A stretch of DNA of 64,000 nucleotides from Symbiodinium sp. CCMP2592 (taxonomy: Eukaryota > Sar > Dinophyceae > Suessiales > Symbiodiniaceae): positions 558,001-622,000 of the forward strand of contig CAJNDT010004035.1 in assembly GCA_905221615.1 (NCBI GenBank). The letters are read 5' to 3'. Under the pieces are notes generated by a model. It did not search any database. It had not been told where the DNA came from and saw nothing but the letters and a program-made list of their open reading frames with translations. The translations under genes and the position numbers were made by a program. Shown in pieces: positions 45,118 to 62,887 of the stretch (position 1 is the first letter of the stretch; each line of letters opens with the position of its first letter).

Positions 45118-45385
<268 letters not shown>

Positions 45386-45418
45386 CAACCCTGTATCCAA
45401 GGGCCTTCTCCTCACGCT

Positions 45419-45430
45419 CTGCAGCCATTT
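45419..45430 (+). promoter_or_regulatory. Spliced-leader-like acceptor motif 1 (CTGCAGCCATTT)
   Basis: It follows a pyrimidine-rich stretch and matches CCGTAGCCATTT of the dinoflagellate spliced leader at 10 of 12 positions. No clear start codon frame follows within 100 bases. Confidence 0.45.
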
Positions 45431-45489
45431 CCTATTTACGATGTACATATAACTGAACTTGAGTGCAGATTACACAGCAGGGGGTGGCA

Positions 45490-46358
45490 GCAGGGTCCAG
45501 AGTCTGCCACCAACGAAGACACTCTGGATACCCTGGTGAAGCACGGTCTGATCAACCGTGTGTACCTGCCGTTTGTGACATCGTATATCATCTTTGCTGT
45601 ACATTGGTTTCACTTGGCTATTATTATTCTGGTTGCGCTTCTCTGGATATGGCATGGGGCTAAGCCGAGAACCCCGACCAGTCGTTCTCCTGCAGCTATG
45701 GTATCACTTCAGAAACAGTCAGTGCTTGAGTTCATGTCGTCTGGTATGCGCTGGTTTCTGGATGGCTTGGGGCTAAGCCGAGAACCCCGTTTAGCACGTA
45801 CACTTGCAAGCATTGTTCAGTGCCAATGTCCACCTCTTCAGCCCTTGCCGTGTCCTCCGGTGCGTTGGGGTTCAGGCTGGCGTTGTGGTTTAGTTAGGCA
45901 GGTTGAGGTGTCAGCCACAGACTTTCTGCACTTCCTCTTTGCAGTTGCTGTCCATGAAGCTACCTGTCCGAAGTCTCTGATGTGTGGTCACTTGAGACCT
46001 GGACATCAGATGGTCCGTCGCATACCGAAACCTTCCTTAGCATTCAGTGTGTAGTCCTCCGGGACGGTGGTGTACGCCTCGGTGCTGCACTCAGATCCTC
46101 CAAGTTCGGAGGCGCCAAATTCAGTGTCAGCGCTCAGACCAGTTCAATGGAGAGAACAGTGAAGCCACACGGCCTACCCGCCTCTCATGGCACCCACAAA
46201 TTCGGCTCCATGCCTACCAACACGCGATTGCAGCTCAAGCAGCTTCAAGCACTCATACCCAAGGACTCAGGCAGGATACGTTTTGACCGTAACGTTCTAG
46301 CGACTTTTCCCTGTAGTAGTTGTTGTTGTAGGCTGTGCATTGCTTGTCTGCATTCGCC
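45490..46358 (+). other. Array leader region, coding status unclear
   Basis: A block after GCAG at 45490 (ATNEDTLDTLVKHGLIN, then CC|GTGTGT) looks like an exon but has no family match. From 45549 on, the sequence is repeated at 59689. Open frames 45536-46054 and 45982-46533 are not conserved as protein: copy 2 lacks 19 bases (45933-45951) and one shifts frame. GGGGCTAAGCCGAGAACCCC occurs twice (45657, 45769). CCCTGTAG at 46309 may be a decayed acceptor for the next cistron. Confidence 0.4.
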
Positions 46359-47650
46359 ATGCCTCCTCGTCCCCGTCCATCCTGTGCACCTGGACTCTGG
46401 CCGACCGCACCCTCTCGATCACGATCTCGGCGACGCCCGAGGTCTGCGTCTTCATCGTCCTCTACTTCTTCTTCCTCGTCAACGCCGGCGGCACCTACGA
46501 CCCGGACTGCCGCACCTCAACGTTCCACGTTGACTGGCCGAATCGCTGCCCCGTTACAGCCTCCACGACCTATTGATATGGCAGCTCCAATGTTCCTGAT
46601 CTTTCTCCTCTTCCTCCGAGCCCGTTTTGGCCTGGTTTACCTCCCGCTGGCTCACCGCCGTCTTCCTCCAACAACGACCAGTCCGTGCCTGCTGCTTATG
46701 CCTCTACCTCGCCGCCGGACCCGTCTTCTACCCCTACGGCATCTTCGACTTCGCCACCTACAGCATCTTCGACTTCACCAGCTCCTTTCAGCTCTGCTTG
46801 CACGCTGGCCACCTTACGCCAGTGTTTGGCCGCGGCAGACCAGCTTGATGCCTACCTACAATCCGATTACTCTACCCGATTGGGCTCCCTCAAGGCGGTA
46901 CACTGGGATCGAGTATATACTGCATTGCTGCAATACAGGTCCTACTTCAAAGCGCTCCCTCATCGTCGACAATGTCAACAGGAGTTGCTCTTGGAGGGAC
47001 GCAAATTTGACGTGCCTTTTACTTTAGCCGATCCGATTCTTACAGTGATGCATCTGCTGGTACATGCGGGATACCATCCTCACAGTGTTCAGTTCAAGTT
47101 CACACATGTCGAGGCTCCCCAACATCAACCAGACAAAGCTGGCCGACCCATGCTCATGGTGTCGCTCCCCTTCCCCGCAGCAGCTGTACGGGTTAGCGGG
47201 GCACCTGCAGTCGCCTATTTTGGCCATAACACGGACCTTCAGGCCGCCTTTGGCATCCTGAAAGAAGGATGCATTCGCCCCAGCAACTATGACCCCGTTG
47301 ACACTTCTTGGCTGCCGAGTCCTGCCTTTTACTCTCGCGCTTCCGTCCACAGTCTCAGCGGAGCCTTACGGGCTGCAGCCAAGTTTGGGGGATGGGGTTC
47401 TCCCCGTCCGATTTGTGTATATGGCCGAATCCCTATTTGCTATCTCGACATAGCCAATGCCGCGCCTACCGACACACCGTCTTCAGTGCTTCCCAACACT
47501 CCCGCGGCCTATCACCTGAAGAGCGACAGCGGAGGCACCGTCCCCGAAAACGCGGCGAACTACTTCGTCTCCATCCTGCACGGCAACGACAACCGTTGGG
47601 GGGTGCACTCCACGCTCGCACAACCAGAAGGCATCGCCGTGTTCATGTGA
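46359..47650 (+). CDS. Array cistron 1, unknown protein with a frame change
   Basis: Translation from ATG 46359 is Arg/Ser/Pro-rich (SRSRSRRRPRSASSSSS). Near 46577-46600 the protein-like text moves to the -1 frame (SPLPPSPFWPGLPPAGSPP), which stays open to 47650. The C-terminal 230 residues look globular: YFGHNTDLQAAFGILKEG, IRPSNYDP, GRIPICYLDIANA, NYFVSILHGNDNRW. The H-N-T...IL-eG-I-P pattern is loosely like ADP-ribosyltransferase folds, but that is a guess. Both copies carry the same frame change, so it predates the duplication, or is real (frameshift or intron), or was copied by assembly. The copy at 60480-61771 differs by one amino acid that I noticed. Confidence 0.55.
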
Positions 47651-47730
47651 GAGGACCCACAAAAGGTGTGCGTGATTTGCGTTATGGCATGGCTGGTCTC
47701 TTTGTTGTTGCCGCCTTATTCTTCTTCATC

Positions 47731-47742
47731 CCGCAGCCGTTT
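47731..47742 (+). promoter_or_regulatory. Spliced-leader-like acceptor motif 2 (CCGCAGCCGTTT)
   Basis: Preceded by TTATTCTTCTTCAT; the match runs on as TGCTGAAC-TAAG, like the leader's 3' part. ATG 44 bases on (47775). Confidence 0.65.
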
Positions 47743-47774
47743 TGCTGAACTAAGTGTGACCTTGCTAGCACATC

Positions 47775-48662
47775 ATGGCCTCCTCCGCCTTCACTCCTGA
47801 ATATTTGCAGTTGTTCTTGGTGTTTTTCGAGTCGTTGTCCGACCACCAACTGCTCCAAGTACGTGATGTATTACTACGAGCCCATCAGAATCGATCGACG
47901 TTGACTCCTATGACACCGGTGGCTACGACAACTACTCCACCACCTCCGGATGCTCCCCCACCTGCCACGGCGCTGCTCACCTCCAGTGACCCAGGCCCTT
48001 ATTCCTCTTCTGGACCTCCAGTACTTCCACACAGCAGTGGTAGAGCAGCTGTGGTGCCTGCGACTCCCATGGGACCACCACCGATTCCTTCTCATTTGGA
48101 TCCTTCTCATTTGGATCCCTCCCAGCGCCAGACCCTACCACGACTTCGCAGACGGGACCGTGACTATCCCCGAGATGAAGACCGTTCTCGCCCTGCAGAC
48201 CGCGATCGGGATCGTCATCGCCGGCGACGTCGCTCAGTATCGTCACCTCCTGCTGACCCACTACCTGCCGGCCCTTCTTCTCCTCTGATGTCATCTACCT
48301 CGGGATATTCTGATGCCAACCCGATCGGCCACACAGCTCCACCCCCCGCCGTCTCCAAGCACTCTGGACGCCCTCTTGCACCTAAGGTCGATGCTGACGG
48401 TACTGTCATTTACGTGCCTGTCAAAGCCCGACCACAAGTTCCACCTCCGCGGACCACAACGGCGACAACTGGCCGATCCCGCAGTCGGCGTCGCCGCCGC
48501 GATCGTGCTGACCGAGACCGTGACGATCGTGAGGATCCTGACCGCTCTCGAGGTGCGCGTGATGTTCCCCATCGCGATCGAGACCGCGATCGACACCGAC
48601 GGGATGTGAGCGGCGACCAGCAGCGGCCACCCTTGACTCTCTACTCCGTCGCTCGGGCCTGA
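47775..48662 (+). CDS. Array cistron 2, basic RD-rich protein (295 aa)
   Basis: A short helical N-terminus (YLQLFLVFFESLSDHQLLQV, residues about 10-30) is followed by a Pro/Thr-rich linker and two strongly charged Arg-Asp blocks (ADRDRDRHRRRRR and RSRSRRRRRDRADRDRDD). The composition suggests nucleic-acid binding, as in RS/RD proteins or the Gag-like first ORFs of retroelements; that is inference. A tandem TCTCATTTGGATCC unit repeats SHLDP twice. Intact, with motif 2 forty-four bases upstream and motif 3 fifty-two bases after the stop. No homolog recognised. It appears identical in copy 2. Confidence 0.65.
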   Translation: MASSAFTPEYLQLFLVFFESLSDHQLLQVRDVLLRAHQNRSTLTPMTPVATTTTPPPPDAPPPATALLTSSDPGPYSSSGPPVLPHSSGRAAVVPATPMGPPPIPSHLDPSHLDPSQRQTLPRLRRRDRDYPRDEDRSRPADRDRDRHRRRRRSVSSPPADPLPAGPSSPLMSSTSGYSDANPIGHTAPPPAVSKHSGRPLAPKVDADGTVIYVPVKARPQVPPPRTTTATTGRSRSRRRRRDRADRDRDDREDPDRSRGARDVPHRDRDRDRHRRDVSGDQQRPPLTLYSVARA

Positions 48663-48713
48663 ACAAAACATGCGCCCCCCGCGGACTCTGCGCCTCCTTG
48701 TTTCTTGGTTGTT

Positions 48714-48725
48714 CCGCAGCCATTT
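48714..48725 (+). promoter_or_regulatory. Spliced-leader-like acceptor motif 3 (CCGCAGCCATTT)
   Basis: Only one base differs from CCGTAGCCATTT. Preceded by CTTGTTTCTTGGTTGTT. ATG 53 bases on (48767). Confidence 0.65.
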
Positions 48726-48766
48726 CCTACATCATTCCACAGTCTTGCGCTTCCCTGACACCACAC

Positions 48767-49378
48767 ATGTCTTTCCGACGCTCTGCTCCCTTTTCATCCT
48801 CTGCCTCCTCTTCCTGCTCGACATTGTCGTCATCCACTTCGGCAACTGTTCTGGAGTACTTGAACGTATTAACTGATCCTTTCATTCTCTTCCGGGTGTT
48901 CTTACCATTCCTGGAACTTCGTCTACGTACAGCTCTCGTCCCTCCGGACTCGATCATGGACACTGCCTCTGCCCGTACACCTGCTCCGGACTCCACTTTA
49001 AGGTGCCTCTTTCCTATTGCTGAACTACATGGCCAGGCCCTTGCGTTCCGGACGGAACGCGACTATCACCTTCACTATGCCCTCGCCGAGATTACATTTC
49101 ATCCCCGTGCCGTTGCTTCTTTGATGGTGACCTGCTCGCGAACATATTACGCAGTACGAGCCCTTCTTCGTGATCGTGGACTTCAATATGCCTTCTACGT
49201 GGAACGCACCCCCGATCTTCCACGGTCACATTCTTCTCGACCGCGCCTGTCCATTTTCCATCCGTTTTGTCCACAACAAGTCCGTGGCATGGCGTTACAC
49301 CGTGGACTTCAGCATTGGGTCTTCATTCCCTCCAGCTACCAGGAGTTACCTCTGATCCGGCTCGGACGTTTCTCATGA
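48767..49378 (+). CDS. Array cistron 3, unknown protein (203 aa)
   Basis: Starts MSFRRSAPFSSSASS, then hydrophobic/aromatic segments (VLEYLNVLTDPFILFRVFLP; LHYALAEITFHPRAVASLMV). No family recognised. Just before the stop at 49376-49378 another frame reads LQLPGVTSDPARTF and then AQDLDKEDYLLLRSS to a stop at 49429-49431, and this text looks more natural than the in-frame ending. A late frameshift is likely, with a true end about 50 bases on, immediately before motif 4. Same in copy 2. Confidence 0.55.
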   Translation: MSFRRSAPFSSSASSSCSTLSSSTSATVLEYLNVLTDPFILFRVFLPFLELRLRTALVPPDSIMDTASARTPAPDSTLRCLFPIAELHGQALAFRTERDYHLHYALAEITFHPRAVASLMVTCSRTYYAVRALLRDRGLQYAFYVERTPDLPRSHSSRPRLSIFHPFCPQQVRGMALHRGLQHWVFIPSSYQELPLIRLGRFS

Positions 49379-49444
49379 TGCGCGCTCAGGACCTGGACAA
49401 AGAGGACTATTTGCTACTGCGCAGTTCCTAAGCGAGCTCATTTC

Positions 49445-49456
49445 CCGCAGCCGTTT
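49445..49456 (+). promoter_or_regulatory. Spliced-leader-like acceptor motif 4 (CCGCAGCCGTTT)
   Basis: After the motif comes TTATTTTGGCTCCT, which keeps the TTTTGGCTC word of the leader. ATG 69 bases on (49514). Confidence 0.7.
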
Positions 49457-49513
49457 TTATTTTGGCTCCTTTCGCCTGCTTCCTCACGCCTCCTCCCATT
49501 CTTCCTCCTCCTG

Positions 49514-50996
49514 ATGCCTCCACACCGTTCTCGCACTCCACCTTCCCGACACCATCGTCTACATGGACGTGATGAACCTTCTCGACATGATCCCTATTCG
49601 TCCCAGCGGAACATGACGACGCAACCTCCCAGGTCGGGGTCCTTCCGGGACAATCGCGCATACAGCCGGACGTCTCCTCCTCGGTCCCGACGACATCGCA
49701 GCCGCACTCCGGTGTCCAACACGCCGGAACATCACCGCCACCGCAACCGTGGCCCTTCGATCAGACAACATCGACATCGAGATCCTGACGCTGATTCTCC
49801 CCCACGACGCCGACTACACTATTCTTCACCACGGCCATCGTCTCGACGACATCCTCTTCCTTCCGCCTCTGACCGACGGGCACCACACTCTGACAGCCGG
49901 GTGCACTCCACTCCTCCACCTCATGACGATCCATCCCACTATTCTTCCTCCGGTGCACCTCCAGCTCGACGTGAACCTCGCCGTGATCGTCGCGATCCTC
50001 CTTCCGCTCGGGATCATCGCCTACTTCAAGAACGCTACGAAGACATCTATTCGCTCGGCGCCAACTGGGAAACCACCGACCTCTTCCTTGATGCGAACCC
50101 AGACCGCGGTTTCCCTTTACCGCGCAATGTCGTAGACACTGCCTTTACCCGGCGTCTCGGCATCGCCGAAATGCCTATTCATCTCGTCCCTATTGTGTCG
50201 CTTACCCCGAATGCGGGACAAGCATGGATCGTCCGCCTGCTGGCGGCTGGCCGCCCTCTGGTGATCGAAATTTTCAGGACGCGGCAGGAAGCGCTGTTGG
50301 CGTCATTCATTATTCGGACGCTCCGCAAGTCCTCGGACCAATACGACATCTCTGATGTCCTTAAACAACTACATGACAATCACACAGTCGCTACCGAAGG
50401 CCCACGCGACCTTACCGTATGGGCGTATCGCGCTCAGCTCTTGCAACACGTGGCGGACAAGGTTGCTGTGACGATTAATGATCTACTACCCCACGGAGAA
50501 GGTGCAGCCGGAGGACGACCTGGACTTCTGGAACAAATTCAACGATTGCAGCAGGACAACGACCAGCTCAGGATGCTTGCCGCTGGCACGGGCGCCGAGA
50601 CCCTACCTCATCCACTTGCAGAACCGAACCCTCCACCAGATGCCGCCACCAGACTCCGGGACATTTTCCAAGTTCGAACGACTCGATCGCCGTGCTGTCC
50701 TTGCGTCCAACTCCCCCAAATCCGCCTCTACCGCCGATGTGAAGAAATGGCTCGACGGTCTCATCAAGCTCCATCGCGAATCCTACACACCGAAGCTCAC
50801 CGAGTTGCAGGGCATCTTGAAAGAGGCCACCGCGGGCGTCTTACCACCCTTGGACAAAACCCTTGTAGATTGGGGACTGACCGTCAGTTTGGCTTCCAAG
50901 TTGTCTGAAGTCAACCAACAAAAGCTCTTAGCGATGACGGCGGTCCTCTCCGCCTTCCAGCCAGCCGCGGTTCCTGCTACTGCTCCCAGCACATGA
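49514..50996 (+). CDS. Array cistron 4, Arg/Ser-rich N-terminus and helical C-terminus, with a frame change
   Basis: Residues 1-170 are Arg/Ser/His/Pro-rich (RSRRHRSRTP and similar), then a globular part (RYEDIYSLGANWETTDLFLD; LLAAGRPLVIEIFRTRQEAL; KVAVTINDLLPHGE) with a short coiled coil (LLEQIQRLQQDNDQLRML). Near 50655 the natural text leaves this frame (which runs open to 50908) and continues in the +1 frame: FSKFERLDRRAVLAS, ADVKKWLDGLIKLHRESYTP, KTLVDWGLTVSLASKLSEVN, to a stop at 50996. From memory, the last part resembles a helical domain often found beside dinoflagellate reverse transcriptases; this needs a search. Possible nucleocapsid-like role, inferred from composition only. Confidence 0.55.
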
Positions 50997-51130
50997 ATGT
51001 GATCGTCCTCACTGTCCTTCAGATGGCACTTCGCATCAACTGCTACCATCGTGGGGGTGGCCGCAGTCGAACGGAAACAGTCTGCAACGTTGCTTGCCTG
51101 CCTGGACGTTGAGTCATATGTTTACACTTT

Positions 51131-51142
51131 CCGCAGCCGTTT
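51131..51142 (+). promoter_or_regulatory. Spliced-leader-like acceptor motif 5 (CCGCAGCCGTTT)
   Basis: Preceded by TATGTTTACACTTT; followed by CCTTAAGG. ATG 37 bases on (51168). Confidence 0.65.
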
Positions 51143-51167
51143 CCTTAAGGGTTTTGATATTAATACC

Positions 51168-51770
51168 ATGCCGCTCCAGCTTTCCACACTTCCTTGCGGA
51201 TTTTTGCATCAGCTCCTGGACTACCACCAGAACTTGTTCGCGTACGCCGTGGCCGCGACCCACCCTCCTATTGATGGCAGTCCAGGCAATTCTATTCGGC
51301 AGACCACACGACATCCCGATGACATCATGATCCGTGACCGTCTTGCAGAGCTCATTGACCGTCACACTAACCTCTTCTACGGGTTCTTCCGCGTTGGGGA
51401 CAACTATTATCATGGCCTATTTGTTCTTACCTTCGACATCGGCGTCATTTCGGCACTTTCGGCCACCAACCGCCATCTGAATGATGCACTCGCCATTTAC
51501 CTTCTCGCTCGCTCCATGACCACAGTTGCCCTCCTACCCGCGGATCGTTCTGAACCTCCTGATCTTCTTCGTCGGCGTCTTCCACTTGGCTCAGAGTTCT
51601 CCAGCATTGTGCGGTTCTCCTCTTTGACATACCGCCTGGGCATTCCCTCCTATTTGACTGAGTTCGATTGCACGGAGGTCCCCCGCAGTCGTCTATTCCG
51701 ATTACGACTCCATGCCTTCGGCACCGCCTTGCAGAGCAGACATCTTCAGGACACCTCCTGGAGCGGATGA
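51168..51770 (+). CDS. Array cistron 5, unknown protein, paralog of cistron 6 (200 aa)
   Basis: I chose ATG 51168 because it is the first after motif 5; the open frame extends further upstream. The core reads NLFYGFFRVGDNYYHGLFVL, then LSATNRHLNDALAIYLLARS, RRLPLGSEFSSIVRFSS and LGIP. The same spaced residues (N..Y....DN.YHGLF....D.....L...NR..N.....L..R..T, R.LP.G......VRFS) recur in cistron 6, so the two arose by duplication. No domain family recognised. No membrane span or signal peptide is obvious. Confidence 0.65.
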   Translation: MPLQLSTLPCGFLHQLLDYHQNLFAYAVAATHPPIDGSPGNSIRQTTRHPDDIMIRDRLAELIDRHTNLFYGFFRVGDNYYHGLFVLTFDIGVISALSATNRHLNDALAIYLLARSMTTVALLPADRSEPPDLLRRRLPLGSEFSSIVRFSSLTYRLGIPSYLTEFDCTEVPRSRLFRLRLHAFGTALQSRHLQDTSWSG

Positions 51771-51849
51771 TCGTGGGATATAAAGACTCCTCACTTGTCC
51801 TTTTCATCACTGACTTCATTCCCTCTGAGTTATTTTCCGTGTCCTCTAC

Positions 51850-51861
51850 CCGCAGCCGTTT
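51850..51861 (+). promoter_or_regulatory. Spliced-leader-like acceptor motif 6 (CCGCAGCCGTTT)
   Basis: Preceded by TTATTTTCCGTGTCCTCTAC. ATG 53 bases on (51903). Confidence 0.65.
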
Positions 51862-51902
51862 CAGCTAATTGGCTTACCCTTCATCCACTTGCTCGTCACA
51901 CC

Positions 51903-52667
51903 ATGGCGAACTTGGCACCGGAGGCACTGGTGGACCTTCCTACTACCTCTGAATACCGCGAATGGGTCGCAGCTGCTCGAGAATCTCGCAGAGATCGCAC
52001 TACACCGACATCCTCGACCACCTATGTCTCATTATCCTCTGGAGAGAACCGTAGGATTTCCATCTTCACCGACGTCCCGGTCAATTTTTGGCTTTCTCCT
52101 TTCATTGTGATGCGAGGCTGGTTGGTTCCGTTCTCCTCGACCTCACCGCGACCGCACATCCACCAGATTATGCACGAGGTGATGACGGAGGCCTGTAACA
52201 TGTACTATGAGGTCGTCCAGATCGCGGATAATTCTTACCATGGGTTGTTCGAGATTATACTCGACTTGTATCTCACCACGCAGCTCCTCCGGGTCAACCG
52301 CAATATGAACTATGAAGTCATTCACTTCTTGCACGGGCGCAACATTACCCACTTCATTACTCGGGACGTTCATCAACCTCGACCCGCTCAACTACTACCA
52401 GGTGAACCTACTCCCCGTACGCGCGGACCGTTTCTGCCTCCACGCATCCTACCCATCGGCACCACCTACGCTGACGTGGTCCGGTTTTCAGATGCGGTTC
52501 TGACATTGATGATCCCTCATGAAATTCACACCTGGGAGGCTCTTGAGTTGTTGCAAACACAGCTACGGTGTCTACGCGCCCGCTCCTACCTGTTGCTGGG
52601 ACAATGTCTTCATTACCACCGCCGTGTGTTCTTCACCGCAGCCTCCGCCAACGATGTGGATCCATGA
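51903..52667 (+). CDS. Array cistron 6, unknown protein, paralog of cistron 5 (254 aa)
   Basis: Starts MANLAPEALVDLPTTSEYRE. The shared core is NMYYEVVQIADNSYHGLFEI, LLRVNRNMNYEVIHFLHGRN and PRILPIGTTYADVVRFSDAV, against cistron 5. The N-terminal 60 residues and C-terminal 45 (LELLQTQLRCLRARSYLLLG) are longer than in cistron 5. Function unknown. The duplication is old: only spaced residues survive, while the upstream acceptor motif is identical. Confidence 0.65.
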   Translation: MANLAPEALVDLPTTSEYREWVAAARESRRDRTTPTSSTTYVSLSSGENRRISIFTDVPVNFWLSPFIVMRGWLVPFSSTSPRPHIHQIMHEVMTEACNMYYEVVQIADNSYHGLFEIILDLYLTTQLLRVNRNMNYEVIHFLHGRNITHFITRDVHQPRPAQLLPGEPTPRTRGPFLPPRILPIGTTYADVVRFSDAVLTLMIPHEIHTWEALELLQTQLRCLRARSYLLLGQCLHYHRRVFFTAASANDVDP

Positions 52668-52783
52668 CGCCGTGCTCCGCATCCTGGTCCTCATACACTC
52701 TTTTTGACTGCCCGCACGGAAAAGATCCTATGCTCGATGCCCCATTCTTTTCATGTGCAATTCTTTTCTCTGATTTATGGATC

Positions 52784-52795
52784 CCGCAGCCGTTT
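52784..52795 (+). promoter_or_regulatory. Spliced-leader-like acceptor motif 7 (CCGCAGCCGTTT)
   Basis: Preceded by TTCTTTTCTCTGATTTATGG. ATG 60 bases on (52844). Confidence 0.65.
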
Positions 52796-52843
52796 CTCCC
52801 ATTGGTTTACAATACGGCCGCGTCCTTCTTCACGCCGAGCTCT

Positions 52844-53254
52844 ATGAAACGATCAGCCGCTGTCGCAGGACTACCTACCCCACCTAACCTAATACGTCTG
52901 CGTGTTCTGATTCCAGCCTGGTTCCTTTGCTGTGATCTACCCGATGACGGTGGACATGCAGAGTGGTTTGACTTTCATGTGTGGAGCGACATGCTCATTG
53001 ATCATGTGAAACAACGACTCTCGCAACTGCTTCACCAACGCCATGGTCGTTACTTGCACCCATCGCACTTTCAGTTACTCCAGGGCGACCGACACCTCTC
53101 CTACATGAGGAGCACCACTGCGATTGCCACCGTCAAGGACGCTGAAATCCTCCGAGAAGAACCCGCTTGTGGCAGTCTACTTGAAGCCCGCCGAACGACC
53201 TGGCAACCGGCCATTGAACTACCTCCTGGTACCACACCGACTTGGAGACGTTGA
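52844..53254 (+). CDS. Array cistron 7, small protein with a possible ubiquitin-like fold (136 aa)
   Basis: After a short leader, the pattern IRLRVLIPAWFL, WSDMLIDHVKQRLSQLL, HPSHFQLLQGDRHLSYM and IATVKDAEIL follows the strand-helix-strand order of beta-grasp/ubiquitin-like domains (a helix with VKQRL, a FQLLQGD strand-turn, a final v.d.e.L strand). No C-terminal Gly-Gly is present, so conjugation is not implied. This is shape-reading, not a family match. Confidence 0.55.
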   Translation: MKRSAAVAGLPTPPNLIRLRVLIPAWFLCCDLPDDGGHAEWFDFHVWSDMLIDHVKQRLSQLLHQRHGRYLHPSHFQLLQGDRHLSYMRSTTAIATVKDAEILREEPACGSLLEARRTTWQPAIELPPGTTPTWRR

Positions 53255-53314
53255 CGGCAAAACAGCTTGCTGCCGCCCTTTGTGATGTGTTTCTTGTTCT
53301 CCTTTGCATACATG

Positions 53315-53326
53315 CCGCAGCCGTTT
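53315..53326 (+). promoter_or_regulatory. Spliced-leader-like acceptor motif 8 (CCGCAGCCGTTT)
   Basis: Preceded by TTTCTTGTTCTCCTTTGCAT. ATG only 23 bases on (53338), the shortest distance. Confidence 0.65.
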
Positions 53327-53337
53327 CGATCATCATC

Positions 53338-53832
53338 ATGAGTGTTCCCTTCCCCATTGCCTCGCTCGCACACATCACCTCGTACCTGCAGTACATCGAT
53401 GTGATCTTGGAGTTGCACGACGATGCTGACGACTCCCCAGAATCGCATGACAACTTGCCTTTGTGGGTGACCAGGTCGTGCGCTCTGATTACCAACTCCA
53501 TGCGAAGGGCCCGGCTTCAATGCGGCACACCGAGATTGATTCGACACGGATACCATGAAGCAGTCTTTCGCGTCTCCCTACAACATGTGAGTTTATTCAT
53601 TTGTCAGACAACAGCAGCTGTTTGTTCGGAATGGTGCCACGTTCTACGTGATTGTCTTGATGCCACTGAACATTTGCAATTACACCTCGCCCGCATCCCA
53701 CAAGCTGCTCTACGGCAAGGTGCTCCGTGCAAACTCTTCTACTGGGACGACGAGGAAGGCGTGGAAACATCTATTTCGATACTACGAGCTGCCCTAAAAG
53801 TTCGTCGCGTACGTTTTCAGCATCTCTCTTGA
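53338..53832 (+). CDS. Array cistron 8, unknown protein (164 aa)
   Basis: Starts MSVPFPIASLAHITSYLQYI, with an acidic loop (HDDADDSPESHD), a central RLIRHGYHEAVFRVSLQHVS, Cys-containing helices (ICQTTAAVCSEWCHVLRDCL) and a basic C-terminus (LRAALKVRRVRFQHLS). No family recognised. The frame is intact from motif 8 to a stop 95 bases before motif 9. Confidence 0.6.
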   Translation: MSVPFPIASLAHITSYLQYIDVILELHDDADDSPESHDNLPLWVTRSCALITNSMRRARLQCGTPRLIRHGYHEAVFRVSLQHVSLFICQTTAAVCSEWCHVLRDCLDATEHLQLHLARIPQAALRQGAPCKLFYWDDEEGVETSISILRAALKVRRVRFQHLS

Positions 53833-53926
53833 TTCTCTCTCTTGATTCACTCCATACCGCCCTGCCATCGGAAAACCGTCCGACCTTGCTATCCTTTGTT
53901 GCGCTTGCTTGCCCCTTCCCTTTGGT

Positions 53927-53938
53927 CCGCAGCCGTAT
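53927..53938 (+). promoter_or_regulatory. Spliced-leader-like acceptor motif 9 (CCGCAGCCGTAT)
   Basis: Preceded by GCCCCTT-CCCTTTGGT. First in-frame ATG for the RT cistron 45 bases on (53972). An out-of-frame ATG at 53955 is followed by a run of ten C. Confidence 0.6.
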
Positions 53939-53971
53939 ATTCTCGGGACGCTTCATGCCCCCCCCCCACCT

Positions 53972-56900
53972 ATGCCCATGGTCCATGAACGGCGCCGGTC
54001 TCGCACTCCACGTCGACACCATTCTGTACGTGCGGAATGCCCTCCTCATGCACGAGTACGAGGCAACAGACAGGCTCAGACCAGACAAGCTCGACTCATT
54101 GATTTTCTACATCAGGGCCCACTTCACCCACTGTATCGCCGTTTTGCCAATGGCCAGTCGGTGTACCCGCTTTCTTTCGAGTCCACCGATGCTTTACTAC
54201 TCGTTAACGAGGTCATTCGTCAATTGACAGAAGGTTCTTCATTGTCACCAGCACAATTTTCTGCACTACGTGATGATGACGTTGCCCACCACCTACGACA
54301 TGAACTCTTCCCTTCCTCATCATCCTCTACCTCTTCAACATCCCGGCCAGTCATGGGTTTCAATCATCTGAGGAGATCACAGACATCTGACAGTCTACCA
54401 CTCCGAGCAACCTCGACCTCATCTTTGCGACGCTCTACGACCAGGACATCCACAACTCCGTCTACATCTTCAACCTTATGGATTCCACCACCCCCTCTCG
54501 ATGCCATGTTCTCTCACCGTCCAGATCCCACACACAGGCCGTCTCCACCTCGAGTACATTATACCTGTCCTTCCTCATGTGACATGTCCCAGCCACCTCG
54601 GACTCCCGCATCTTCCTCTACAGGTCTAACTTCCTCGACCAGGACGTCCCTTACCACACCAACCGGCTGGACTAAAGACTCGGACCTCAAGATTGATGGA
54701 TTGACATCGGCACTACGACCAACTTTGCCTTCGATCTCCGACTCGCGCATCCATGAGTGGTTGGTCAGCAGATACGCACTGACACGCGTTCAGGTTGCTC
54801 ACACCTTACAAACCTCCGCTCTCCGACTCCTCTTCTGCCTGGAGATCTTCAGCTTTGACCACTTTTTCGCAGAAGATTTGGGAGACGACGAGAACGACGT
54901 TCCACAATTATCTCCGCGAACCCCAGCTCGTCACCGCCTACCACCTCATCCACACCGACTTCTTACATCTTTCCTAGACTTTTACATTGCGGCATTGCCG
55001 ATTATACGACAAGTTCTTCCACATCATGTCTTTGGACGTCTCTCCTGGGTACGTGCTCTGTGGTTCCTACAACTTCATCGCCTACGGTTCGCCACTACTA
55101 CCAACCATCGCGGTCTCCAGGATCTATTCTTCAATTTGGACGTACAGCCGTACACTCTGCGACATCATTTACAGTCCAACGTCGTCTACATCAAAGTCTC
55201 CCACAAACACCCCGGATGGTACATCGGCTCCACCATCCACACGATCATTGACCGGGAAGTTAGCCGCCGCTCCAAATATAATCAACTTTGTTCCGGCACT
55301 CAAGCGTTCTTCGAGCCTGCCTTACGCATTTGGCACGCTGCCGGTACCTACGATCATCACCTACCTATTACTTTACAGCACCGACCTACTGAAGAACAAG
55401 TCCGCGCCTTGGAACAATCTCTAATTGCCACATATCATCCACACTTGAATGCCCCTTTCGTCTACACGTTCCTACGGAAATTGGGAGTACAGCTGGAAGC
55501 ACCCATGGTCACCACCTTCTTGGAGGGTGGCAACGGTGCTCGTCTCCTACGTGCTCATCATCGCTACACACACTACCGGGATCTACCGGAACTCCTTGGC
55601 ACTCGCTCCCTCATCGAGCAACGGGAGACCCTGGCCACAATCATACAATATGTCGGCAGCAATGGCGTTCTCAAGTTTTTCTCACAACGAGTTCTACGTC
55701 GGAATGGCACTCCGATAGCCTACCTTTACTTACTCGTACGCTTCCTTGTCTTCGTGGATGAGCCACATCAAACACGTGCCCTACAAGCTTTACGTCTAGC
55801 CCTTCGCTACAAAGGAGGAGATATCCCGCCTCGTCACCGATTACTTCCTCTTCCTCAATTGGCTCATGACTTTTTACGACAAGCTCAACATTGGTTGGAC
55901 AGCTACATACTTCATCACCGAGAATGGTTCCCACCTTACCATCTACCACGATACACCATCACCGAGAAGAAGGCCCCTACGCTTGGTCAAACCTTGTTCA
56001 ATCACCACGCATGGCTACGATTGTGGGACCCAGAGAAACCCTTCTTGTGCTGTTGTCAACAACTACCAGGACAACGCACACCCTCGGACCATGTCGCAGC
56101 CCCAGCCGATGTCGTCCTGAACGAATCCATCTTTCGGGAAAACATGAGCGACGGCCGATGGTTGACCAAATCCCAATTTCGCAGGTTTACAGTGGCCCCT
56201 TTGAACCGATGGTTCAAGTTGTGGCGACAACCCGACCAATCTTTACTTCGCTGGCAAGTCTTTGTCTCACACCAATGGCAACTCCACAGCCAAACTCTAC
56301 GGATGCGTCCTGACGGCAGACAGTTACGCGAACTCAAGAACTTACGGGAAAGCTCGGAGCACATCGTGATCTCCCCTATTGATCATGGACCGCATTTGGC
56401 TTATGCATTTTGTCCTCGACAATACTTCGACATCTTGACCAAGACTTTCTTGGATCCTGCAGTCTTCTGGCGACGAGACACCAACCCGATGCAGCTATCG
56501 GAACACATACAACGAGCTATCAAACGACATGTTCCCACACGTTATCACTGGGCCCTGGCACCCAAAGCAGCTTTGCCGTATGCCTACGTGCTCCCCAAGC
56601 CCTCCAAACAATTCCTGAAGGGTCGCCCGATTGTCAGCTATTCCAACACGTGGTGTGCCACGCTCGCGAAATTTCTTTCTACCGCGGTCCTACAGATGCT
56701 ACAGACTGTTGTTCCACCTCAGTTCGTGTCTCCTACCGTCCACTCCATCATCCAGACGTTCATCCATGCCTTCCGCAACAACCCGGTCACCGTGGAACTT
56801 CAGCTACTTCAACAAGATCTTTCTGGTTTCTTCACTTCGGTTCCACATGATCGCATTTACCACTCGATCTCGTCGTTGACAGACATGTTCGCTCGCCACC

Positions 56901-57421
56901 AACAGATTCCCTTGGACTCCGACATACAGATCACGATGCGGGACCGCAATTCACTTGGTCGCCTATTTCGAGGCCGATATCGAAAAGCCGGTTCACATTA
57001 CAAACCTCTATGCCTTCGTGACTTACCTTCATTGGTTATGTTCTTGCTACGTCACTCCTTTTTCACAGTTGGCACGGAGATTTTGGTACAACATCGCGGG
57101 GCCTCTATGGGCTCACCCTCCTTCGGATTTGGGATGGGGAACTGGAATCCCTGGATGGTTGCCAACGACACCACTCCCACCGAGGCCACGATCCTCTTTC
57201 GTCATCCTCTACGTCCCCGTATGGTTGGTTCCAAGAGATATATTTACATCCACATTTCTATGGTCTTCCATTGGAATTGGAACATGTTCCGGGACAAGAA
57301 CTACTGGGCACCGTCGTGGACACCGCACAACGTTCCATCCGACTCGTCCTTCCACGGAACAGTATCTCTTTGCGCTCCCCGTGCTCAGTCTCTTCGACAC
57401 GCAGGAACACTCAGGGACTGA
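53972..57421 (+). CDS. Array cistron 9, GIY-YIG endonuclease plus reverse transcriptase (permuted Penelope-like order)
   Basis: Residues 1-300 are Ser/Thr/Pro-rich. At about 404-496 comes a GIY-YIG nuclease: VVYIKV, then GWYIGST (415-421), DREVSRR, EPALRIWHA, EEQVRALEQSLI and a final HLNAPF. A Cys/His patch follows (CCCQQLPGQRTPSDH). RT motifs begin at about 872: YVLPKPSKQFLKGRPIVS, LQQDLSGFFTSVPHDR (motif A, Asp near 948) and VQHRGASMGSP (motif B). Nuclease first, RT second is the order known for permuted Penelope-like elements. The expected Tyr-x-Asp-Asp/Asn box is absent in all frames, and the thumb-like text (GLPLELEHVPGQELLGTVVD; YLICRLSWPKAVIAPQVREL) lies in another frame, ending at 57627. 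So the RT is broken near 57130-57260, or the gene needs splicing/frameshifting. Confidence 0.8.
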   Translation: MPMVHERRRSRTPRRHHSVRAECPPHARVRGNRQAQTRQARLIDFLHQGPLHPLYRRFANGQSVYPLSFESTDALLLVNEVIRQLTEGSSLSPAQFSALRDDDVAHHLRHELFPSSSSSTSSTSRPVMGFNHLRRSQTSDSLPLRATSTSSLRRSTTRTSTTPSTSSTLWIPPPPLDAMFSHRPDPTHRPSPPRVHYTCPSSCDMSQPPRTPASSSTGLTSSTRTSLTTPTGWTKDSDLKIDGLTSALRPTLPSISDSRIHEWLVSRYALTRVQVAHTLQTSALRLLFCLEIFSFDHFFAEDLGDDENDVPQLSPRTPARHRLPPHPHRLLTSFLDFYIAALPIIRQVLPHHVFGRLSWVRALWFLQLHRLRFATTTNHRGLQDLFFNLDVQPYTLRHHLQSNVVYIKVSHKHPGWYIGSTIHTIIDREVSRRSKYNQLCSGTQAFFEPALRIWHAAGTYDHHLPITLQHRPTEEQVRALEQSLIATYHPHLNAPFVYTFLRKLGVQLEAPMVTTFLEGGNGARLLRAHHRYTHYRDLPELLGTRSLIEQRETLATIIQYVGSNGVLKFFSQRVLRRNGTPIAYLYLLVRFLVFVDEPHQTRALQALRLALRYKGGDIPPRHRLLPLPQLAHDFLRQAQHWLDSYILHHREWFPPYHLPRYTITEKKAPTLGQTLFNHHAWLRLWDPEKPFLCCCQQLPGQRTPSDHVAAPADVVLNESIFRENMSDGRWLTKSQFRRFTVAPLNRWFKLWRQPDQSLLRWQVFVSHQWQLHSQTLRMRPDGRQLRELKNLRESSEHIVISPIDHGPHLAYAFCPRQYFDILTKTFLDPAVFWRRDTNPMQLSEHIQRAIKRHVPTRYHWALAPKAALPYAYVLPKPSKQFLKGRPIVSYSNTWCATLAKFLSTAVLQMLQTVVPPQFVSPTVHSIIQTFIHAFRNNPVTVELQLLQQDLSGFFTSVPHDRIYHSISSLTDMFARHQQIPLDSDIQITMRDRNSLGRLFRGRYRKAGSHYKPLCLRDLPSLVMFLLRHSFFTVGTEILVQHRGASMGSPSFGFGMGNWNPWMVANDTTPTEATILFRHPLRPRMVGSKRYIYIHISMVFHWNWNMFRDKNYWAPSWTPHNVPSDSSFHGTVSLCAPRAQSLRHAGTLRD

Positions 57422-57627
57422 CCACACGGATTTATCTCATTTGCCGATTATCCTGGCCCAAAGCCGTCATTGCTCCTCAAGTCCGTGAACTTGTTCATCT
57501 ATATCGTGAACGAGGTTTCTCTGAACGTTCACTGGAAGACGCCTCCCGGTCCGTACTCCGTCGTTTTGGACTACGTTGGCGACAGGTCAGTGAACCCCCG
57601 GAAAACTTGCTCGCATGCGTGTATTGA
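57130..57627 (+). pseudogene. Out-of-frame RT C-terminus (thumb) of cistron 9
   Basis: The frame one base back from the main one reads IYLHPHFYGLPLELEHVPGQ, ELLGTVVD, RIYLICRLSWPKAVIAPQ and VRELVHLYRERGFSERSLED, to a stop at 57625-57627, 34 bases before motif 10. Its place and hydrophobic pattern fit the RT thumb. Between motif B and this point two frame changes are needed. A third frame shows ILYVPVW where the catalytic box should be. Confidence 0.6.
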
Positions 57628-57660
57628 ACTGGCGCCCTTTTGTCCGTTTGTTGATTTGTT

Positions 57661-57680
57661 CGCAGGCATTTTAGGTCAAG
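57661..57680 (+). promoter_or_regulatory. Longest spliced-leader relict (motif 10)
   Basis: CGCAGGCATTTTAGGTCAAG matches the dinoflagellate leader from its second base to its end at 16 of 20 positions, including the terminal TCAAG. Preceded by TTTGTTGATTTGTT. ATG 41 bases from its start (57702). Confidence 0.75.
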
Positions 57681-57701
57681 TTACCACCAGAGCCCTTCAT
57701 C

Positions 57702-58556
57702 ATGGCCGGTTCTTCCCCCGATTCCTATCTCTTGGACGACGTCACCTGGACACCAGACCCGGACATGGACTCAGACCTGGACGCCTCCTCCGCACATGAT
57801 GCTGGTCTACCTCCCGCCGGTTCAGATGTTGATGGGGACCCCACACCTCATCACACCCTTCCTCTTTCTCCCTCTCCTCTCCCCAGAACACCCGCCAGCA
57901 AACGCCGTCGACGACATCGCCACCACACTACCTCCTCTTCTTCCACATCATCCCGACCTTCCAAGGCCACGTCAACATCATCTTCGACATCTTCATCGTC
58001 TTCATCCTCTTCTTTGTGCCCCACTACGGAACTACGAACACTGGACCCACCTATTTCCTCGTCCCGTTCGAAGACACGCCCACGGAAGACACCTTTGGGG
58101 ACCAGCACTACCACTCCAGCGACAGGAGCTACACCAGCCCAGACCAATTCTCCCTCAGCGACTTTACACGCTCCCCCTCGTGTCCGAATTCCTCCCCGAG
58201 GAAATGGTTATACATTACATCGAGTACGCCGCAGCAAGTCGGGCACTACACATTCCACCGTATCATTCCATGGAGATGCCGCAGAACGTCGCCGACAACA
58301 GTGGCTCCGACAATGGCGCCAATGCACTCCTGCCTCCCCGTACTATCAGGACGTGCAGAACTGCATCAGACATCGCGCCCGCATTATGTTGGACATCATA
58401 GCACATGAACGAGGAGGACCCACTGCAGCTTCGGACAATTTACGGATACGACGCCGCTATCACCTACCAGAAGACCAACTCATTCCTTTGGCACTCATCT
58501 ACCGGGATTGCGCTGCTCGCCGACGACGGTCCGTCCGTGAAGTTCTGAGTACCTGA
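57702..58556 (+). CDS. Array cistron 10, Ser-rich linker and basic C-terminal domain (284 aa)
   Basis: An acidic N-terminus (DDVTWTPDPDMDSDLDAS) is followed by a basic cluster (SKRRRRHRHH) and long Ser/Thr tracts (STSSSTSSSSSSSS). The last 100 residues look folded: TTHSTVSFHGDAAERRRQQW, VQNCIRHRARIMLDIIAHER, RRRYHLPEDQLIPLALIYRD. The basic cluster could be a nuclear signal. No homolog recognised. Intact frame from the ATG after motif 10 to a stop 61 bases before motif 11. Confidence 0.6.
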   Translation: MAGSSPDSYLLDDVTWTPDPDMDSDLDASSAHDAGLPPAGSDVDGDPTPHHTLPLSPSPLPRTPASKRRRRHRHHTTSSSSTSSRPSKATSTSSSTSSSSSSSSLCPTTELRTLDPPISSSRSKTRPRKTPLGTSTTTPATGATPAQTNSPSATLHAPPRVRIPPRGNGYTLHRVRRSKSGTTHSTVSFHGDAAERRRQQWLRQWRQCTPASPYYQDVQNCIRHRARIMLDIIAHERGGPTAASDNLRIRRRYHLPEDQLIPLALIYRDCAARRRRSVREVLST

Positions 58557-58616
58557 TTCCACCGAGATCCCGCTCTGGAAAACATGCCCGATCACTCCGT
58601 TTCGTCAGTTCCTTAC

Positions 58617-58642
58617 CCGCAGCCTTTTCACCGCAGCTTTTC
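58617..58642 (+). promoter_or_regulatory. Double spliced-leader-like motif 11 (CCGCAGCCTTTT and CCGCAGCTTTTC)
   Basis: Two acceptor-like copies lie 14 bases apart (58617, 58631), the only doubled site. ATG 58680 is 63 bases from the first. Confidence 0.6.
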
Positions 58643-58679
58643 TGTACAAACACAGTTGGTTTCCCTTGCTCACCAACGA

Positions 58680-59250
58680 ATGGCTTCCTTCATTGACGTC
58701 CTCCCCTTGCTCCTCTCCTATTTCGAGATGCAGACTGTGATACAATTGGATCCCCGTCATTGCCAACGTCCACACACTGACGACCGCCACACCACTCGTT
58801 CCGCCTTCTCCATTTTGACCGCACATCACGGCGATTGTTCCTGGCACCAATATGGCGTTTGGCAACAGTTCCTCGCCGCCCTTCAAGATCACAAGATGAG
58901 CGCCCACAACTTCTTTGGCTTCCACCACGACAACACGGTGTTCACGATCTATCACTATCAGCCCTCGGTCATTGTATACTGCAATCAACTGTGTTGGCGA
59001 GCCCACGTCCACTTACGTTCTGCATCACGACTTTGCCTACGTGTCCGTATTCGAGACCCTACCCTAGCACAGTGGCGACCTACTTCGTCTGGACCCTGGA
59101 TTACCACATGCTGGTGTTCAGCGCATTGCCTTTCCTTTTCCAAATGGACACCTACGATTTCTCGCCGCCACTCACCTCCTCCACCCATCGCTACGGACAA
59201 TCCTTATTGGCAACAAGAACAACAACGACATGGTCTTCTTCCCGCTCTGA
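58680..59250 (+). pseudogene. Array cistron 11, broken (frame change and stop)
   Basis: Starts MASFIDVLPLLLSYFEMQTV and continues naturally to VFTIYHYQPSVIVYCNQLC near 58990. The likely continuation is in the next frame (TSTYVLHHDFAYVSVFETLP), which meets TAG at 59065-59067 and then resumes (PHAGVQRIAFPFPNGHLRFL; TILIGNKNNNDMVFFPL) to TGA at 59248. In its own frame the ORF stays open to 59258, but as unnatural text. One indel plus one nonsense change would explain this. Function unknown. Confidence 0.5.
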
Positions 59251-59336
59251 GACGGTGAAGCTTTGGAGGACACGGACGGCAATTTTTGAGACAAAGACCC
59301 TCACTTGCACATCTTGACCCTGGTCCTTTTGCTCCA

Positions 59337-59348
59337 CCGCAGCCCTTT
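59337..59348 (+). promoter_or_regulatory. Spliced-leader-like acceptor motif 12 (CCGCAGCCCTTT)
   Basis: Preceded by TGGTCCTTTTGCTCCA. ATG 71 bases on (59408). Confidence 0.6.
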
Positions 59349-59407: not shown

Positions 59408-59588
59408 ATGGCCCCGCACCTATCCGACATTCCTTTGGAATGGTGGCTTGATTACCTGGTGGAGCTCCGAGTATGGCAAGTTCGTCCGATGACCTCCCCC
59501 GATCTCCAGATCCCTAGCACCCTCCTTGACCCACGCTTTGTGATATCGCAACACCGATTCACCACATCTCAGAACCGCTACTACCTCG
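59408..59588 (+). CDS. Array cistron 12, cut off by the gap
   Basis: Starts MAPHLSDIPLEWWLDYLVEL and is open for 60 codons into the N run. It shows that the unit has at least one more cistron before the next copy begins. No family recognised. Confidence 0.55.
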
Positions 59589-59688: not shown

Positions 59689-60479
59689 TGATCAACCGTG
59701 TGTACCTGCCGTTTGTGACATCGTATATCATCTTTGCTGTACATTGGTTTCACTTGGCTATTATTATTCTGGTTGCTCTTCTCTGGATATGGCATGGGGC
59801 TAAGCCGAGAACCCCGACCAGTCGTTCTCCTGCAGCTATGGTATCACTTCAGAAACAGTCAGTGCTTGAGTTCATGTCGTCTGGTATGCGCTGGTTTCTG
59901 GATGGCTTGGGGCTAAGCCGAGAACCCCGTTTAGCACGTACACTTGCAAGCATTGTTCAGTGCCAATGTCCACCTCTTCAGCCCTTGCCGTGTCCTCCGG
60001 TGCGTTGGGGTTCAGGCTGGCGTTGTGGTTTAGTTAGGCAGGTTGAGGTGTCAGCCACAGACTTTCTGCACTCCATGAAGCTACCTGTCCGAAGTCTCTG
60101 ATGTGTGGTCACTTGAGACCTGGACATCAGATGGTCCGTCGCATACCGAAACCTTCCTTAGCATTCAGTGTGTAGTCCTCCGGGACGGTGGTGTACGCCT
60201 CGGTGCTGCACTCAGATCCTCCAAGTTCGGAGGCGCCAAATTCAGTGTCAGCGCTCAGACCAGTTCAATGGAGAGAACAGTGAAGCCACACGGCCTACCC
60301 GCCTCTCATGGCACCCACAAATTCGGCTCCATGCCTACCAACACGCGATTGCAGCTCAAGCAGCTTCAAGCACTCATACCCAAGGACTCAGGCAGGATAC
60401 GTTTTGACCGTAACGTTCTAGCGACTTTTCCCTGTAGTAGTTGTTGTTGTAGGCTGTGCATTGCTTGTCTGCATTCGCC

Positions 60480-61771
60480 ATGCCTCCTCGTCCCCGTCCA
60501 TCCTGTGCACCTGGACTCTGGCCGACCGCACCCTCTCGATCACGATCTCGGCGACGCCCGAGGTCTGCGTCTTCATCGTCCTCTACTTCTTCTTCCTCGT
60601 CAACGCCGGCGGCACCTACGACCCGGACTGCCGCACCTCAACGTTCCACGTTGACTGGCCGAATCGCTGCCCCGTTACAGCCTCCACGACCTATTGATAT
60701 GGCAGCTCCAATGTTCCTGATCTTTCTCCTCTTCCTCCGAGCCCGTTTTGGCCTGGTTTACCTCCCGCTGGCTCACCGCCGTCTTCCTCCAACAACGACC
60801 AGTCCGTGCCTGCTGCTTATGCCTCTACCTCGCCGCCGGACCCGTCTTCTACCCCTACGGCATCTTCGACTTCGCCACCTACAGCATCTTCGACTTCACC
60901 AGCTCCTTTCAGCTCTGCTTGCACGCTGGCCACCTTACGCCAGTGTTTGGCCGCGGCAGACCAGCTTGATGCCTACCTACAATCCGATTACTCTACCCGA
61001 TTGGGCTCCCTCAAGGCGGTACACTGGGATCGAGTATATACTGCATTGCTGCAATACAGGTCCTACTTCAAAGCGCTCCCTCATCGTCGACAATGTCAAC
61101 AGGAGTTGCTCTTGGAGGGACGCAAATTTGACGTGCCTTTTACTTTAGCCGATCCGATTCTTACAGTGATGCATCTGCTGGTACATGCGGGATACCATCC
61201 TCACAGTGTTCAGTTCAAGTTCACACATGTCGAGGCTCCCCAACATCAACCAGACAAAGCTGGCCGACCCATGCTCATGGTGTCGCTCCCCTTCCCCGCA
61301 GCAGCTGTACGGGTTAGCGGGGCACCTGCAGTCGCCTATTTTGGCCATAACACGGACCTTCAGGCCGCCTTTGGCATCCTGAAAGAAGGATGCATTCGCC
61401 CCAGCAACTATGACCCCGTTGACACTTCTTGGCTGCCGAGTCCTGCCTTTTACTCTCGCGCTTCCGTCCACAGTCTCAGCGGAGCCTTACGGGCTGCAGC
61501 CAAGTTTGGGGGATGGGGTTCTCCCCGTCCGATTTGTGTATATGGCCGAATCCCTATTTGCTATCTCGACATAGCCAATGCCACGCCTACCGACACACCG
61601 TCTTCAGTGCTTCCCAACACTCCCGCGGCCTATCACCTGAAGAGCGACAGCGGAGGCACCGTCCCCGAAAACGCGGCGAACTACTTCGTCTCCATCCTGC
61701 ACGGCAACGACAACCGTTGGGGTGTGCACTCCACGCTCGCACAACCAGAAGGCATCGCCGTGTTCATGTGA
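60480..61771 (+). CDS. Copy 2 of array cistron 1
   Basis: Same RS-rich start, same move to the -1 frame, same stop as 46359-47650. One Ala becomes Thr (61583); the 61723 change is silent in the C-terminal frame. Confidence 0.55.
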
Positions 61772-61851
61772 GAGGACCCACAAAAGGTGTGCGTGATTTG
61801 CGTTATGGCATGGCTGGTCTCTTTGTTGTTGCCGCCTTATTCTTCTTCATC

Positions 61852-61863
61852 CCGCAGCCGTTT
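61852..61863 (+). promoter_or_regulatory. Copy 2 of acceptor motif 2
   Basis: CCGCAGCCGTTT, identical to 47731-47742 with its flanks. Confidence 0.65.
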
Positions 61864-61895
61864 TGCTGAACTAAGTGTGACCTTGCTAGCACATC

Positions 61896-62783: not shown

Positions 62784-62834
62784 ACAAAACATGCGCCCCC
62801 CGCGGACTCTGCGCCTCCTTGTTTCTTGGTTGTT

Positions 62835-62846: not shown

Positions 62847-62887
62847 CCTACATCATTCCACAGTCTTGCGCTTCCCTGACACCACAC

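Follow-up and report, generated by a model that had tools for sequence, protein, structure and literature searches.

A leader-like 12-mer between the cistrons of a dinoflagellate retroelement suggests a signal for cutting one long RNA into separate messages

It has long been asked whether dinoflagellates resolve polycistronic RNA by trans-splicing, and a stretch of the genome of the coral symbiont Symbiodinium sp. CCMP2592 raises the question anew. The window analyzed here, 64,000 nucleotides of contig CAJNDT010004035.1 (positions 558,001 to 622,000), carries from position 45374 on a retroelement in which 12 cistrons (A to L) run in a single direction, with a 12-base motif resembling the start of the dinoflagellate spliced leader at their junctions. 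Is this 12-mer a relict, or does it do something for the element? Our comparisons suggest that it serves to divide a single long RNA of the element into separate messages. We read the array as a multi-cistron element of the Penelope-like type and the 12-mer as a selected processing signal, most likely a spliced-leader acceptor used at CCGCAG|CC, a reading drawn from sequence to which we give a probability of about 0.65.

A 12-mer at the cistron junctions

All 11 cistron junctions carry CCGCAGCC[N]TTT or a close variant, on the sense strand only; the variant, at 57661, is closer to the leader than to the 12-mer. An earlier note on this DNA had listed 12 such sites, and the sequence it described is present at every one. 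Six of them (47731, 49445, 51131, 51850, 52784, and 53315) are exactly CCGCAGCCGTTT, as it said, and its distance of 23 to 71 bases to an ATG holds for the 11 sites from 47731 on. Its picture of a 12-site array needs amending: 11 sites precede cistrons, and that at 45419 sits in a terminal repeat instead. With at most one mismatch the window holds 13 matches, all on the plus strand and all within 47731-63577, against a shuffle expectation of 0.33 (0 of 100 shuffles reached 13), and positions 1-47730 hold no match at this threshold. The genome as a whole holds 950 exact copies of the 12-mer and 201 of the reversed pattern; for its A variant, CCGCAGCCATTT, the count is 918, with 29 for a control. 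The 12-mer is therefore not equally common in random DNA, the circumstance that the earlier note had named as fatal to its claim.

The DNA ahead of these sites also has the composition expected of an acceptor. Over the 40 nucleotides upstream of the 11 sites the pyrimidine fraction is 0.69, against 0.59 for the array (p = 0.0001), which bears out the pyrimidine-rich context first noticed there, and AG occurs 6 times against 14.7 expected (p = 0.009). At 49445 (cistron D) and 53315 (cistron H) no other AG lies between the motif and the ATG in any of the eight copies read, the window included. Pyrimidine-rich, AG-poor DNA ahead of an AG, together with the sole AG at D and H, fits a trans-splice acceptor.

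Conservation between copies and a second family

Between copies the 12-mer persists where its surroundings diverge. In the strongly diverged copy C32, whose synonymous sites differ from those of the window at 0.51-0.70, the 12-mers agree with the window at 78 of 84 letters (93%) and other intergenic DNA at 405 of 868 (47%); the p value of 4e-18 for this contrast is indicative only, because letters are not independent. Among 722 other 12-letter windows of the same comparison, 26 reach 10 identities, 4 reach 11, and none reaches 12, against 11 or 12 identities in five of the seven motif windows and 10 in the other two. An alignment-free search of C32 likewise finds eight sense sites with at most one mismatch where 0.15 are expected, all 20-57 bases ahead of an ATG, and none antisense. 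The contrast recurs in C24 (95/96 in the 12-mers, 767/960 elsewhere) and C652 (35/36 and 172/277); it is weaker in C224 (79/84 and 537/804), where 25 of 650 other windows match completely. These comparisons span the junctions within fetched DNA: all but 48714, 57661, 58617, and 59337 in C32; all but 52784, 57661, 58617, and 59337 in C224; all but 57661, 58617, and 59337 in C24; and, in C621, C652, and C809, all but the eight junctions before 57661. The right ends of the 52784 and 58617 spacers are approximate.

A 38-row profile, which omits junction 57661, one empty row (C24a at 53315, empty in the AG comparison too), and a misaligned C32 row at 52784, leaves position 9 free (G 22, A 8, C 5, T 3) and the other positions nearly fixed, position 4 being C in 37 of 38 rows. 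At the variant junction, all 18 rows agree in the 19 letters of 57661-57679.

A second multi-cistron reverse transcriptase (RT) family, read at one place (C182:205801-212600; L066:123-2528 with L065), has an RT frame 27-28% identical to the RTs of the window and of copy C109, followed by small open frames. Exact CCGCAGCCATTT stands ahead of three of the four possible small cistrons after this RT. A DNA search with the second RT gave 293 first-look candidates, 40 of them scored, and a protein search 16 homologues. On contigs C1-C182, the extent of both lists, 109 of 170 A or G matches fall in same-strand clusters, and 24 of 28 two-site clusters are spaced 1570-1586 bp. In eight of the nine scored second-family copies there, an A or G site follows the RT match at 129-140 bp; C127, the ninth, has the second site only; all five listed copies of the window family have seven A or G sites. 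The 12-mer thus looks to be under selection, and the suggestion that it was selected rather than left as neutral relicts is strengthened on three counts: it is kept amid divergence, it lies between cistrons under purifying selection, and a second, diverged family has it.

Organization of the element

From 45374 on, the window is a tandem retroelement with a period of 14,121 bp. Unit 2, which follows an assembly gap at 59589-59688, is 99.5% identical to unit 1 over 4,331 columns, and since the array is one unit of this repeat its sites recur at 61852, 62835, and 63566. The features, all on the plus strand, are as follows.

45374..46052, +: 5' terminal repeat, 679 bp, starting in (GT)n; the same segment lies at both ends of other copies
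45419..45430, +: CTGCAGCCATTT inside the terminal repeat; C[CT]GCAGC[CT]NTTT in 16 of 17 3' repeats examined
46359..47650, +: cistron A, the first, its frame interrupted in the window copy; all 4 rows keep the ATG at 46359
47731..47742, +: 12-mer before cistron B, CCGCAGCCGTTT, identical in 8 of 8 rows
47775..48662, +: cistron B, Arg/Ser-rich, without known domain
48714..48725, +: 12-mer before cistron C, CCGCAGCCATTT; AG lost in C224
48767..49378, +: cistron C
49445..49456, +: 12-mer before cistron D; no later AG ahead of the ATG in 8 of 8 rows
49514..50996, +: cistron D, N-terminus Arg/Ser-rich; frame shifts near 50470 in the window copy
51131..51142, +: 12-mer before cistron E; four of the eight rows read CCGAAG
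51168..51770, +: cistron E, paralogue of F; dN/dS 0.05-0.08
51850..51861, +: 12-mer before cistron F
51903..52667, +: cistron F, paralogue of E
52784..52795, +: 12-mer before cistron G; 12 of 12 letters identical in C32 once correctly aligned
52844..53254, +: cistron G
53315..53326, +: 12-mer before cistron H; all 8 rows lack a later AG ahead of the ATG (an empty row is excluded)
53338..53832, +: cistron H
53927..53938, +: 12-mer before cistron I
53972..57624, +: cistron I, GIY-YIG nuclease and telomerase-like RT
57660..57680, +: leader-like 21-mer before cistron J, TCGCAGGCATTTTAGGTCAAG, matching the leader at 16 of 21 positions
57702..58556, +: cistron J, Ser/Arg-rich
58617..58628, +: 12-mer before cistron K, CCGCAGCCTTTT; C535 and C4911 have lost the AG
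58680..59258, +: cistron K
59337..59348, +: 12-mer before cistron L, CCGCAGCCCTTT
59408..59588, +: cistron L, start only, entering the 100-N assembly gap (59589-59688); longer in L016
59689..60173, +: remainder of the terminal repeat in the middle of the tandem pair
60174..64000, +: start of unit 2, with its three 12-mer sites

In the 1.098 Gb of genome searched, the RT region of the window family yielded 53 first-look candidates and 40 scored copies, 83-100% identical over the main stretch, with 79% for the lowest piece. The boundaries of the terminal repeat were set from 3' copies. A GT-rich continuation adjoins it in all four 5' flanks that could be read and in 11 of the 16 such 3' flanks, the other five lacking it. 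The window itself has a long (TG)n tract at its 5' end (45060-45430), and many copies read likewise adjoin GT-rich tracts. Paired terminal repeats are 99.65% identical in C109 and 99.5% in C153, so some insertions are recent. Directly upstream of the point where the (GT)n of the 3' repeat starts, all 17 copies listed have a GC-rich hairpin (CACCCCGC-TACG-GCGGGGTG), for example at about 6870-6897 of L016, an internal 3' end; the window has the assembly gap at that place. This hairpin is a possible recognition site for the RT.

The gap from a stop codon to the next motif is 33-134 bp. The cistrons compared between copies, A to K, evolve under purifying selection (dN/dS about 0 to 0.35; 0.07-0.11 for A over the frame 46577-47647). 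Cistrons A, D, and I are interrupted in the window copy; in I the frame breaks after 57118, where about 122 bp of the other copies are missing. C109 and C67 have open RT frames of 1383 and 1384 residues. The missing stretch holds the RT motif YVDN, invariant in 10 of 10 aligned rows (L016:389-4537 and relatives).

Homologues of cistron E form one cluster, from Symbiodinium sp. CCMP2592, and those of the window-family RT number 11, two from this organism and nine ENA proteins. A PDB sequence search with the RT protein gave no match, and a PDB profile search one weak maturase RT (E = 0.19). The VIA-align list contains no solved PLE, an absence without weight as evidence. The 170 pattern matches among IMG/VR contigs include no relative, and the six Rfam matches at E<=5 in 44000-64000 include none that is convincing.

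Relation to the spliced leader

The dinoflagellate leader is given as CCGTAGCCATTTTGGCTCAAG after one ambiguous base (PMC6050394, PMC8045281), and the motif matches its first 12 bases except for a T-to-C change at position 4 (T4>C) and the free position 9. Past these bases the resemblance fades: over the 23 bases after the 12-mer at 14 sites, similarity to the leader tail is not significant against shuffles (p = 0.17), although nominally better at 49445 (p = 0.018) and 57661 (p = 0.046). A match along the 22-nucleotide leader, the mark of a DinoSL relict, is absent, with 57660-57680 (16 of 21 positions) as the exception. Descent from the leader is therefore likely for the 12 bases themselves and unproven beyond them, the tail standing no higher than shuffles.

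The canonical CCGTAGCCATTT occurs 660 times genome-wide, against 53 for a control, mostly scattered among the 100 places listed. One occurrence, at C102:563517, lies, judged by spacing, at the expected second-site position of a copy of the second family.

The acceptor reading and its weight

We infer that one long sense transcript of the element spans the cistrons and that the cell's spliced leader is joined at CCGCAG|CC at the junctions between them, yielding separate leader-bearing messages. The signal itself would probably be derived from, or mimic, the leader's 5' end, with T4>C making a TAG into a CAG. No 12-mer stands before cistron A, whose ATG is instead preceded, within 46300-46358, by a conserved GTAGGCTGTGC (CCGTAGGC in C32); this may be a variant acceptor. 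In trypanosomes, 3'-end formation is coupled to the next acceptor. By analogy, the 12-mer may additionally help set the 3' end of the preceding cistron, which would account for its copy in the terminal repeat: 3' repeats hold the 45419-type site directly past the last cistron. The placement of this site is compatible with such coupling without proving it.

Several observations weigh against this account. An acceptor alone requires neither the CCG before nor the CC.TTT after the AG, so the motif is more informative than that role demands. A later AG is present in at least one copy at 9 of 11 junctions, and the AG of the motif itself is lost at single sites (48714 in C224; 58617 in C535 and C4911). 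The contrast in conservation is weaker in C621 (32/36 in the 12-mers, 178/277 elsewhere), C809 (33/36 and 198/277), and C109 (128/132 and 1147/1237), and the near copies C109, C153, and C55 add little to it. In the second family a possible fourth small cistron (L065:786-1064) lacks the site. A third RT family (G000:C174:184555-187158 and about nine similar places, with frames of about 909 amino acids) lacks both A- and G-variant sites within 5 kb at the one place examined, C174. The last open frame stops before the 3' terminal-repeat site in 11 of 17 copies, runs past it in 4, and is not assignable in 2; the four that run past weaken the part of the account that concerns 3' ends. A search for retrocopy junctions, TGGCTCAAG|CCBTTT, found 30 occurrences against 2 for a control, several of them ordinary relicts, and at none of the 30 is the leader joined to a cistron of the element. 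The suggestion of a CAG acceptor thus draws support from the upstream composition and from cistrons D and H, and none from these junctions. Finally, polycistronic transcription in dinoflagellates is thought to be rare or limited (PMC11453091, PMC5029490).

If the acceptor reading is correct, the element would be a natural test case with built-in replicates: 12 packed cistrons with one conserved leader-like site per junction, in at least 40 copies that were scored, to which the second family adds 293 first-look candidates.

Alternative explanations

The 12-mer might instead be a promoter or initiator, each cistron being transcribed separately from a retained piece of leader, TTT(G), and the leader added at a later AG. 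Song et al. propose leader relicts as promoters, with TTT(G) the better kept part (PMC6050394), and TTT is indeed kept at positions 10-12 of the 12-mer. A later AG, moreover, is present in every row read at 7 of 11 junctions (47731, 48714, 51131, 51850, 57661, 58617, and 59337; the count at 48714 includes the C224 row, whose motif AG is lost, by its later AG) and in six of seven rows at 52784. Yet in none of eight rows is there a later AG at 49445 or 53315, the CAG half is conserved no less strictly than the TTT half, and 33-134 bp from stop to motif is scant space for separate 3' ends and promoters. We consider this explanation unlikely for the array as a whole; a promoter role is possible at junctions with later AGs.

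Encoded mimicry of the leader is improbable. Each message would start at the motif, and its unspliced 5' end would imitate the leader for capping or translation. In its favor, the motif resembles the 5'-terminal bases of the leader but, overall, not the tail, and a dinoflagellate RNA virus that has a leader at its 5' end was interpreted in this way (Levin et al. 2017, cited in PMC10235124). The T4>C change in 37 of 38 rows would spoil the imitation, however, and depletion of AG upstream is not something that mimicry would predict.

Slightly more improbable still is the idea that the 12-mers resemble the body transcription-regulating sequences of nidoviruses, with splicing and RT strand transfer written in one short code. 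The cDNA of each leader-bearing message would end at the leader's 5'-terminal bases, hence the match, and the RT would hop from the message end to a matching site in the full-length RNA, rebuilding or reshuffling the element. This would explain the fixed bases on both sides of the AG and the sharing of the signal by families with unrelated cistrons; the fixed T4>C speaks against it.

A poly(A) or 3'-end signal belonging to the preceding cistron alone is hard to credit. A site does follow each of cistrons A-K, and L too within the terminal repeat (16 of 17 3' repeats). But the last frame runs beyond that site in the four copies already mentioned, the spacing to the next ATG (23-71) is as tight as that to the previous stop (33-134), and leader resemblance and CAG alike are left without explanation.

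That each cistron is a separately retroposed, leader-bearing cDNA with a decaying leader is very improbable. Leader relicts are frequent in dinoflagellate genomes (PMC6050394), and the excess of canonical CCGTAGCCATTT over its control agrees with that, but neutral relicts should decay like the surrounding DNA, which is 47% identical in C32, and a shared T4>C is unexpected of them. At the 30 junction places, scored in the 30 bases shown upstream, six have an intact T form (two being duplicates of each other) and none the C form. With the motif kept amid such divergence and common to two families, we disfavor 12 neutral relicts.

The least probable explanation, that a gene was duplicated in tandem along with the DNA upstream of it, accounts for E and F at most, since these are clear paralogues (hhalign probability 100) but no other pair among 10 cistron profiles (B-H, J-L) reaches 40%, and the flanks of the 12-mers have no listed common match longer than 10 bases.

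Comparison with known systems

By domain content and order, the element appears closest to Penelope-like elements (PLEs). Cistron I carries the two PLE hallmarks, a telomerase-related RT and a GIY-YIG endonuclease, with the endonuclease match (93-187) ahead of the RT matches (about 360 to 808 of the model). A GIY-YIG nuclease ahead of a telomerase-like RT is the likeness to the permuted Chlamys/Naiad branch, reportedly described by Craig and colleagues in 2021. Terminal repeats and insertion in simple repeats, both traits of PLEs, are likewise shared. The RT motif YVDN sets the element apart, YxDD being the usual motif of most RTs, as do the intercistronic 12-mers. The hammerhead ribozyme, frequent in PLEs and not defining, is absent from the Rfam matches at E<=5 in 44000-64000, where the middle repeat is partly an N gap. 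No Pfam match to integrase, protease, or RNase H, the domains that would mark an LTR retrotransposon, was found in the cistrons scanned, whose sequences are very diverged. PLEs have one or two open reading frames (ORFs) in 4-6 kb (PMC6431247), against 12 cistrons in about 14 kb here, and are stated to have been unreported in TSAR before Ectocarpus, a brown alga (PMC12477816). Among the matches listed, open-access titles and abstract starts, to the exclusion of subscription papers, describe neither such a signal nor a PLE in dinoflagellates, and the word Penelope is absent from the genome paper (PMC8045281) and a review (PMC11453091). If our reading is correct, PLEs extend to a giant multi-gene form in an alveolate.

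The Terminons of bdelloid rotifers (PMC6431247) are also giant multi-ORF retroelements of PLE type in tandem arrays. They are endonuclease (EN) deficient and attached to telomeric repeats, whereas the window element has an EN-like domain before its RT and GT-rich flanks, and we do not place it in that class.

The inner AG of a DinoSL relict can act as an acceptor. DinoSL relicts at dinoflagellate retrogenes (PMC6050394, PMC12014239) share with the 12-mers their leader-like bases upstream of ORFs; the 12-mers differ in keeping the first 12 bases only, in the fixed T4>C, in their apparent selection, and in their repetition between the cistrons of one element. The polycistronic units of trypanosomes (PMC5029490) likewise place a pyrimidine-rich tract and an AG between packed cistrons, whereas here a fixed 12-mer takes in exon bases as well. 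The array would then be a mobile element that has adopted its host's leader as punctuation.

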